Source: Streptomyces griseus (GTDB lineage: Bacteria; Actinomycetota; Actinomycetes; Nanopelagicales; Nanopelagicaceae). Taken from it: a stretch of 64,000 bases of DNA. The translations under genes were made by a program, and so were the position numbers. This document shows, piece after piece, positions 36,968-40,017 of this stretch. Within the stretch, counting starts at the first letter, position 1; every line of letters starts with the position of its first letter. The notes under the pieces were generated by a model. That model saw nothing but the letters and a program-made list of their open reading frames with translations, did not search any database and was not told the DNA's origin. Location of the stretch: assembly GCA_945884695.1 (NCBI GenBank), contig CAMCYO010000003.1, forward strand, positions 62,001 to 126,000, written 5' to 3'.

Positions 36968-38602
<1,635 letters not shown>

Positions 38603-38706: not shown

Positions 38707-39009
38707 TTAGGAGGCTTCAGAAATACTTGCTGAGATCTTTCTATCAAGAATCATGGTTCGGTCATCTTCACTTAGACCGCCCCATATTCCGTAGGGCTCT
38801 TGAATACTTAGCGCTTGATCGCGACATTGTTGAATCACCGGACATGTTGCGCAGACAGCCTTGGCGGCGTTCTCACGATTGCGACGACGAGGTCCGCGCT
38901 CGCCTTCAGGATGGAAAAACATCTCGCTAGGAAGGTCCTGGCAGGCACCTTCAAATTGCCATTCCCATAGCTCAGCAAGAGGCTTGGGAAGTCTTGATAT
39001 CTCAGTCAT
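38707..39009 (-). CDS. whiD: WhiB-family iron-sulfur regulator, WhiD/WhiB3 type
   Basis: 100 residues. The reverse frame is open much further (to 39273), but the start is the ATG at 39009-39007: AAAGGAG precedes it, and the protein then begins MTEISRLPKPLAELWEWQFEGAC, matching WhiD of Streptomyces and WhiB3 of mycobacteria. Cluster ligands C23, C53, C56 and C62, the turn EPYGIWGGLSEDDR, and FFHPEGERGPRRR are present. Wbl proteins bind a [4Fe-4S] cluster and sigma factor region 4; WhiD/WhiB3 are tied to sporulation, redox and NO response. It is divergent from the MerR-like gene and convergent with groEL, as in the groEL-whiB3 neighbourhood of mycobacteria. Confidence 0.95.
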   Translation of the reverse strand: MTEISRLPKPLAELWEWQFEGACQDLPSEMFFHPEGERGPRRRNRENAAKAVCATCPVIQQCRDQALSIQEPYGIWGGLSEDDRTMILDRKISASISEAS

Positions 39010-39138
39010 GCCAACTCCTTTTAGTAGTGGCTCAACCATACAACCGCGCCGTAAGTTGTTCAAGCCTAGGCGCGCCATATCTTCTTCATTTAAGCGTTTC
39101 GAGTGGTGAGTTTGGACATAGAAGGCAAAGATTGAGGC

Positions 39139-40017
39139 GTGGATGAACTCTTTACAGTGGCTTCGGTGGCTCGCCGCATAGGCGTTGCACCGGCCACCCT
39201 GCGTACGTGGGACCTTCGCTATGGCTTGGGGCCCTCCCATCATGAGCCAGGAACTCATCGCCGTTATTCCCATAAAGATGTAGCGCGACTGACGTTAATG
39301 CGAAACTTAATTTGTTCAGGCGTCAGTGCAAGCGAAGCTGCGCACAGTGCGCTCTCCTCAAAAGTATCCAGCGCCGGATCCAAAATTACCTCGACTAAAC
39401 CACTAGCCCCCATTGATGATGAAGTTGTTTCAGCTCTCTACCGTTCGGCAAGAACACTTGACTCTGCATATCTTGAAATGTTATTAAGTAAATCAATCAA
39501 GGAGCTGGGAGTTGTAGATGCATGGCAGAGCGTCATCACTCCGTTATTGCATAAAGTGGGTCAAAGGTGGGTCGACAAAGGTGACGGAATTGAAGTGGAG
39601 CACCTTTTAAGCGAAATACTGAAGAAAGTATTACTCACTCCAACAATTGCAAAACCAGTTAACTCTCGTCCCGTTTTACTTGCATGTGTAGGAGAAGAAC
39701 TGCATTCATTAGCAATCCATGCCTTGGCTGCAGCACTTGCAGAGCGCAAAATAGAAAGTTACTTTCTTGGCTCTCGTACTCCATTGGAAGCGCTCTCCCA
39801 AGTCATTAAACGTTTAGCGCCTCCAGCTATTTTCTTATGGGCACAATTGCCTGAACATGGTGAAGCCAAATATTTTCAGTCACTACCCAAAGTCCGTCCT
39901 GCCCCTCGAATCGTGCTGGGCGGGCCCGGCTGGAACCGCGTCGATTATGGCTCTGTAGCCTTTGCCGATGACCTTTACTCTGCGTGCGAGGAGATTTCCA
40001 GGGCAGTCGGGGCGTAA
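39139..40017 (+). CDS. MerR-type regulator with B12-binding-like domains (CarH/LitR-like)
   Basis: 292 residues from the GTG at 39139. Residues 1-72 are a MerR winged helix (FTVASVARRIGVAPATLRTWDLRYGLGPS, HRRYSHKDVARL). Residues about 92-170 look like the four-helix B12-cap domain with W144 and the E154-H155 pair in IEVEHLLSEIL. Residues about 177-285 form a Rossmann-like B12-binding domain; the lower-ligand motif is altered to GEELHS (His189), without the usual following Gly. This is the architecture of the light-sensing repressor CarH and relatives. Whether cobalamin is bound is uncertain. 130 nt separate it from divergent whiD. Many Actinobacteria have such a gene near whiB3/guaB. Confidence 0.8.
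   Translation: MDELFTVASVARRIGVAPATLRTWDLRYGLGPSHHEPGTHRRYSHKDVARLTLMRNLICSGVSASEAAHSALSSKVSSAGSKITSTKPLAPIDDEVVSALYRSARTLDSAYLEMLLSKSIKELGVVDAWQSVITPLLHKVGQRWVDKGDGIEVEHLLSEILKKVLLTPTIAKPVNSRPVLLACVGEELHSLAIHALAAALAERKIESYFLGSRTPLEALSQVIKRLAPPAIFLWAQLPEHGEAKYFQSLPKVRPAPRIVLGGPGWNRVDYGSVAFADDLYSACEEISRAVGA

Follow-up and report, generated by a model that had tools for sequence, protein, structure and literature searches.

A conserved CarH-like MerR-B12 protein as the probable regulator of a divergent WhiB3/WhiD-like gene in Actinomycetes

The stretch of DNA analysed (64,000 nt, hereafter the window) corresponds to C3:62001-126000 of a 1.48-Mb genome that was rated 100% complete. The genes considered here are arranged in the order groES-groEL, whiB (minus strand), a MerR/B12-domain gene (plus strand), two guaB-like genes, and guaA, with the neighbours named by eye. 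The whiB gene (38707..39009, minus strand; start codon ATG at 39007-39009 and stop codon at 38707-38709), identified by ORF calling and by domain and relative searches, encodes a WhiB3/WhiD-like protein of 100 aa containing four Cys residues and a GIWGG motif. A likely ribosome-binding site of whiB, AGGAG, was read from the sequence at 39015..39019 on the minus strand. The opposite gene (39139..40017, plus strand), assigned by domain searches and a structure model, starts with GTG at 39139, has a stop codon that ends at 40017, and encodes a CarH-like MerR-B12 regulator of 292 aa. The original prediction had described a divergent pair with a shared region of 129 nt, and both genes lie where it placed them, separated by an intergenic gap at 39010-39138. 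The product of the groEL gene (36968-38602), which is located next to groES, has a His-rich C-terminal tail, a feature of mycobacterial GroEL1. A tRNA search found none.

The MerR-B12 protein was detected in 41 of 60 genomes, including the window's own, at an E-value of 1e-5, and an alignment model matched 158 of the 296 genomes of the class at 1e-15, paralogues included. The loci examined were a part of these, namely those returned by the 60-genome and class-wide searches together with 40 chosen stretches. Among 89 distinct loci (97 rows minus L002 and seven duplicates; L099 and L100 were added after this count), WhiB was the divergent neighbour in 76, with whiB-merR gaps of 102-446 bp, and in a second scan of named organisms it was the divergent neighbour in 77 of 80. 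The two sets overlap, L140 being a contig equal in length to that of L065. Organisms in the second scan included Lentzea, Saccharothrix, Goodfellowiella, Umezawaea, Kibdelosporangium, Streptoalloteichus, Pseudonocardia oroxyli, Kineosporia, and Motilibacter, and by hand count the linked loci cover 19 families of the class. All 44 merR loci examined in the family of the window genome (the home family) have both whiB and the DNA element described below; related strains raise these linkage and element counts. At many loci groEL, guaB, or both also adjoin the pair, and at 3 of the 13 unlinked merR loci (L076, L078, and L084) merR lies directly beside groEL and whiB is gone. In a tree of 153 proteins, made by a quick method with the home family thinned and containing long branches, the unlinked label was clustered but did not form one clade (6 changes versus 15.4 when shuffled). 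Four records titled as a Bifidobacterium breve MAG or as Spirochaetaceae (L141, L142, L145, and L184) also carry the locus; these cluster with uncultured actinobacteria in the tree, and their titles look wrong.

The window WhiB matches the Pfam Whib domain with an E-value of 2.5e-23. Its best relative of solved structure is WhiB3 (8cyf; 1.1e-31), far ahead of WhiB1 (5.4e-13), and in this respect the gene resembles Mycobacterium WhiB3 and Streptomyces WhiD. Among the WhiB neighbours of 153 linked loci, one of which is partial and was left out, four Cys residues were found in 152 of 152 and a G[VIL]WGG motif in 151 of 152. The WhiB3/WhiD loci of the model genera are not known to have a MerR-B12 regulator. 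Among the genomes examined, G054 (9.2 Mb) carries a whiB with no linked merR, yet unlinked merR matches are present. WhiB3 is termed an orthologue of WhiD in a passage of PMC4255298.

Comparison of the gaps revealed a conserved element of the form TANRAYCG-YKY-CAWARGTTGKTCAAG across the class. It covers the spacer and the -35 hexamer of what is presumed to be the whiB promoter and, with the gaps read side by side, lies mostly 11-90 bp from the whiB start. Its home-family form, derived from 44 gaps, is TACAAYCGNNNCATARRTTGTTCAAG, and the copy in the window is CGCGCCGTAAGTTGTTCAA (39045..39063, plus strand; matrix score, 47.3), a presumed operator made up of two similar halves 11 bp apart. Read on the whiB strand, the home-family element contains TTGAAC followed after 17 bp by TANNNT, a presumed promoter whose -35 (TTGAAC) lies within the element at 39058..39063 and whose -10 (TATGGT) is located at 39035..39040 in the window, both on the minus strand. 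The spacer between the hexamers is nearly as conserved as the hexamers themselves in the 44 gaps. A scan with consensus promoter and terminator models listed nothing and gave no promoter at these presumed hexamers. In six gaps (L005, L007, L009, L011, L016, and L034) some 6 bp separate the end of the presumed -10 from the start codon ATG of whiB, and the whiB mRNA may therefore be leaderless there.

A matrix built on the 44 home-family gaps was tried on 108 gaps of other lineages, or 100 after exact duplicates were removed. Three further loci (L171, L193, and L206) were excluded because they are too similar, and among the named loci it is exactly these that the tree groups with the home family. 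A score of at least 0 was reached by 90 of the 100 gaps but by none of 1000 dinucleotide shuffles, and by none of 100 gaps when the matrix was reversed; near-identical strains, above all those of Lentzea, inflate the matrix counts. The score was negative for ten gaps, and for 10 the best match was on the opposite strand, with three gaps belonging to both groups. The element occurs once in the home genome when up to 3 mismatches of 21 are allowed. Two further matches there, each with 2 of 17 mismatches, were rejected as sites since the reversed control gives equally many. A few matches with one mismatch were found away from the pair in other genomes. One recurring sequence of this kind was discarded, being coding in all three loci checked (EAGTKIVQ, in a frame of 476-477 aa). 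Two loci of the same genus as the window carry 16/17 matches between genes (L225:2019-2038 and L226:1991-2010), about 70 bp from a gene for a secreted protein that resembles, by eye, a fasciclin-domain protein, and the match in L227 sits between genes that look by eye like a permease gene and a glutamine-synthetase-like gene. These three intergenic matches could be second targets or chance occurrences.

A 188-aa ORF that begins at an ATG at 39273 encloses whiB, and its frame runs open through the element, as would be seen if the conserved block coded for an N-terminal extension of WhiB. Relative to the whiB reading frame, however, the element is spread over all three frames (41, 41, and 49 occurrences), which marks it as non-coding, and 93 of 131 loci contain an in-frame stop. 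A coding extension can therefore be dismissed with near certainty for the class. The 188-aa ORF is regarded as an open frame only, because relatives of WhiB begin at the position matching 39009.

The halves of the element have the consensus sequences CGYKYCAWA and TTGKTCAAG and are 11 bp apart, with TTGKTCAAG lying over the -35. In passages of PMC8156234, the 11-bp repeat bound by Thermus thermophilus CarH (TtCarH) is given as nAnnTnnACAn. The -35 half agrees with this repeat at 4 or more of its 5 fixed bases in 98 of 131 loci (3 of 131 when shuffled), a fit that is in part simply that of a -35 hexamer, and the other half reaches this level in only 1 of 131 loci and fits 0 of 5 bases in the window. 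Of 94 gaps outside the home family, 16 contain an inverted copy of the element that faces merR and has an offset of exactly 37 bp, the next non-self offset being found twice; when offsets are ordered by mean score, two come ahead of 37 bp, namely 0 and 20, both of which overlap the element itself. In the home family, 13 of 44 gaps contain a direct copy at an offset of 26-27 bp. A possible second direct copy in the window (39071..39089, plus strand; offset 26 bp) was picked out by eye and is weak and doubtful; with a matrix score of -19.3 it falls outside these 13.

Loci in which whiB lacks a linked merR provide a natural comparison. A search for this WhiB (E-value, 1e-20) in 25 genomes that lack either the regulator or its link to whiB was positive in 10, yielding 11 loci. 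The element was found within 300 bp upstream of whiB in none of the 11 (best score, -15.8), indicating, at the level of sequence comparison, that whiB can outlast the loss of merR while the element does not. Six of these whiB genes are located beside groEL or guaB: two beside groEL and, in the window's own genus, four (G005, G012, G014, and G018) in which merR is gone and whiB diverges directly from guaB. Orthology is less certain for the remaining five, and least certain for L138 and L139, which show 51% identity and may be other WhiB paralogues. The comparison is to be read with the caveat that deletion of merR may itself have removed the element and that the four losses within the genus may represent one or two events. 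At one control locus (L132), a 14/17 match is located at the far end of whiB rather than upstream. In eight home-family genomes without merR (G002, G003, G004, G006, G021, G023, G173, and G233), no such whiB was detected at 1e-20.

WhiB-family proteins act near the -35 together with a sigma factor, and the element overlaps the presumed -35 and -10 of whiB. It might thus be an autoregulatory site of WhiB or a plain conserved promoter, with merR a mere neighbour, and the finding that none of 16 merR loci without an adjoining whiB has the element also fits this explanation. Its absence from all 11 whiB loci without linked merR, however, argues against it, as do the conservation of the spacer, which a plain promoter does not need, and the inverted copies that face merR in other lineages, and we consider autoregulation or a plain promoter quite improbable. 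The conservation of the gene pair, together with that of a DNA site where the whiB promoter is presumed to lie, instead suggests that the MerR-B12 protein probably controls whiB. That the MerR-B12 protein binds the element is considered very probable.

The MerR-B12 protein of the window has a MerR winged-helix DNA-binding domain at residues 5-68 (39151..39342, plus strand; MerR_1, PF13411, 50.5 bits against a cut-off of 21.6). Its helical cap (B12-binding_2) passes the Pfam cut-off, and the B12-binding domain falls just short of it (28.2 versus 32.1 bits). The NCBIfam CarH model (NF052513) matches with an E-value of 7.8e-28 but at 97.5 bits, below the cut-off of 400 for assignment as an equivalog. 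An AlphaFold (AF2) model of the protein has a mean pLDDT of 87, and its best Foldseek match is T. thermophilus CarH (7e-16), the protein having the CarH fold. VIA-align returned photocobilins, CarH, the SCHIC domain of AppA, and MetH, with Z-scores from 19.6 to about 16; for TtCarH the Z-score was about 18 and the rmsd 2.6 over about 190 residues.

According to passages of PMC8156234, CarH homologues are defined by the motifs Wx9EH and ExHx2Gx41SxV/Tx22-27GG. The first is present in the window as W144 and, nine residues on, E154-H155 (39568..39603, plus strand), as had been noted from the sequence alone. In the linked proteins the Trp is conserved in 73 of 76 (Phe in three) and the Glu and His in 75 of 76 each, and the corresponding numbers in the second set of 77 are 75, 69, and 77. 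The second motif retains ExH, GG, and the spacings, but its Gly is replaced by Ala or Pro, its Ser by Trp, and its V/T mostly by Gln. The window sequence GEELHS, which the original prediction had called imperfect, does have Ala for Gly but keeps ExH with the axial-ligand position H189 (39703..39705, plus strand; His in 75 of 76 and 77 of 77 linked proteins). A larger departure, which had escaped that prediction, is W234 (39838..39840, plus strand), located at the Ser of the SxV/T motif in the pocket for the cobalamin tail; the linked proteins almost invariably have Trp here (73 of 76 in one set, 75 of 77 in the other). As reported in PMC9144470, the residue at this position in AerR hydrogen-bonds dimethylbenzimidazole, and Ser or Ala is found there in MetH and CarH. 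The residue beside the cap Trp in TtCarH is a His that becomes the upper ligand on illumination (PMC8156234), and this position is V145 in the window and Glu, Ala, or Gln in most relatives. In 5 of the 13 unlinked relatives (L085, L086, L088, L089, and L097) the cap Trp itself is replaced by Gln or His, which suggests a changed upper-ligand pocket in these proteins.

The protein thus shares with CarH/LitR (TtCarH, 3whp and 5c8d-f) the MerR domain, the helical bundle with Wx9EH, the Rossmann domain with ExH and GG at equal spacing (x41 and x24), and an element over a promoter with halves 11 bp apart. It differs in the Gly to Ala, Ser to Trp, and V/T to Gln changes, in lacking the His beside the cap Trp, in that only one half of the whiB element fits the TtCarH repeat, and in its presumed target, which is whiB3/whiD rather than carotenoid genes. 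The CarH fold, the cap, and the axial His are retained. By the stricter second motif the protein, as aligned here, is not a CarH member, and it probably works like CarH nonetheless. Since the cap motif and axial His are kept and Ser is replaced by Trp, the residues facing the corrin are retained and the tail pocket is altered. The light-state His is missing as well, but the retained residues make binding of a corrinoid likely, and a corrinoid is the putative ligand that we somewhat favour.

The same regulator and operator could operate with a B12 domain that no longer binds cobalamin, the protein acting ligand-free like CarA or with a tail-less corrinoid, heme, or another ligand. Consistent with this are the Trp at the position whose counterpart contacts dimethylbenzimidazole through a hydroxyl in AerR (PMC9144470), the replacement of Gly by Ala or Pro, the residues of the four CarH-type paralogues examined at the Trp position (Ser in L220 and L221, Gly in L223; L222 is incomplete there), and the closeness in fold of the heme-binding AppA SCHIC (Z-score, 17). 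Myxococcus xanthus CarA is also a repressor with MerR and B12 domains and is able to act without B12, but according to PMC8156234 it lacks Wx9EH, whereas that motif and the axial His are nearly invariant here. Similarly, AppA SCHIC and AerR share the domain fold (Z-scores of 17.2 and 13.6), but the matched structures have no MerR domain, and SCHIC, as described in a passage of PMC9144470, has lost the cap Trp and has its axial His shifted by two, unlike the window family, in which the Trp is kept and the His is in register. Ala at the Gly position, moreover, occurs in the B12-binding MerR protein of solved structure 8jbs and in L221. An appreciable minority chance remains with a domain that has given up cobalamin.

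Alternatively, the protein could be a full CarH photoreceptor whose AdoCbl form represses whiB in the dark and is released by light. Wx9EH, the axial His, and the CarH fold fit this possibility, as does the content of the home genome, which encodes a PduO adenosyltransferase (C7:89663-90166), a class II NrdJ (C4:115586-117412), a MetH-sized B12-binding ORF (C1:227436), and a rhodopsin (C3:31327-31995); CobA/CobO/BtuR was not found in this genome. The rhodopsin gene, a check proposed with the original prediction, lies on the window's contig about 30 kb before the window. None of these four genes tracks the regulator closely. PduO is found in 56 of the 60 genomes, with or without merR, and B12 supply is thus uninformative as a predictor. 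By hand counts of genomes that are not independent, 18 of the 27 home-family genomes that have merR also encode a rhodopsin, as do 3 of the 10 that lack merR and only 1 of 13 other genomes with a merR match (also counted by hand), making rhodopsin a weak and confounded predictor. These counts, the missing light-state His, and the replaced Gly, Ser, and V/T of the B12 motif speak against a full photoreceptor, which appears unlikely, and light as the signal is likewise rather doubtful. Of the CarH-type light sensing originally predicted, the CarH-like character is upheld by the fold, cap motif, and axial His, and sensing of light through AdoCbl is made less certain by V145 and Trp234.

Taken together, the evidence favours, with a probability of about 0.7, the reading in which the divergent whiB (WhiB3/WhiD) is regulated by the MerR-B12 protein, a CarH-like factor that would respond to a ligand and act via the conserved element. 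In this mechanism, a corrinoid-loaded oligomer would sit on the element over the whiB spacer and -35 and block RNA polymerase at the whiB promoter, in the way that CarH acts on its own targets. The promoter would be freed if the ligand were lost or if light or redox chemistry changed its upper face, and release of the protein would raise the level of the Fe-S regulator WhiB. Candidate release signals are corrinoid loss, upper-ligand chemistry driven by light or redox, and another ligand. MerR activators act on spacers of 19-20 bp, whereas the whiB spacer of 17 bp is already optimal, and repression is for this reason considered probable rather than activation. In lineages with the inverted copy facing merR, the protein may also govern its own gene. 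The idea that the pair could link light or cobalamin to redox control is well supported on the side of the redox regulator, by the conserved linkage and by an element at the presumed whiB promoter that accompanies linked merR.

No literature joining a MerR-B12 gene to whiB was found in open PMC. It is tentatively proposed that an old and distinct CarH-like branch, in which the pocket for the cobamide tail has been rebuilt (Ser to Trp), may be the ancestral regulator devoted to WhiB3/WhiD in Actinomycetes. Through this branch a signal from a corrinoid, light, or redox state would reach the network of Fe-S regulators, and it may have gone unnoticed because it was lost in the model genera. WhiB3 and WhiD have been studied for redox balance, virulence, and sporulation, and the present comparison provides a candidate regulator of them and a defined site for it. 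This regulator is conserved between acI bacteria of fresh water and the genera Lentzea and Saccharothrix, so that its control of whiB is testable in culture. Should a corrinoid still be bound in the altered pocket, this would represent a new way of holding or choosing cobamides.
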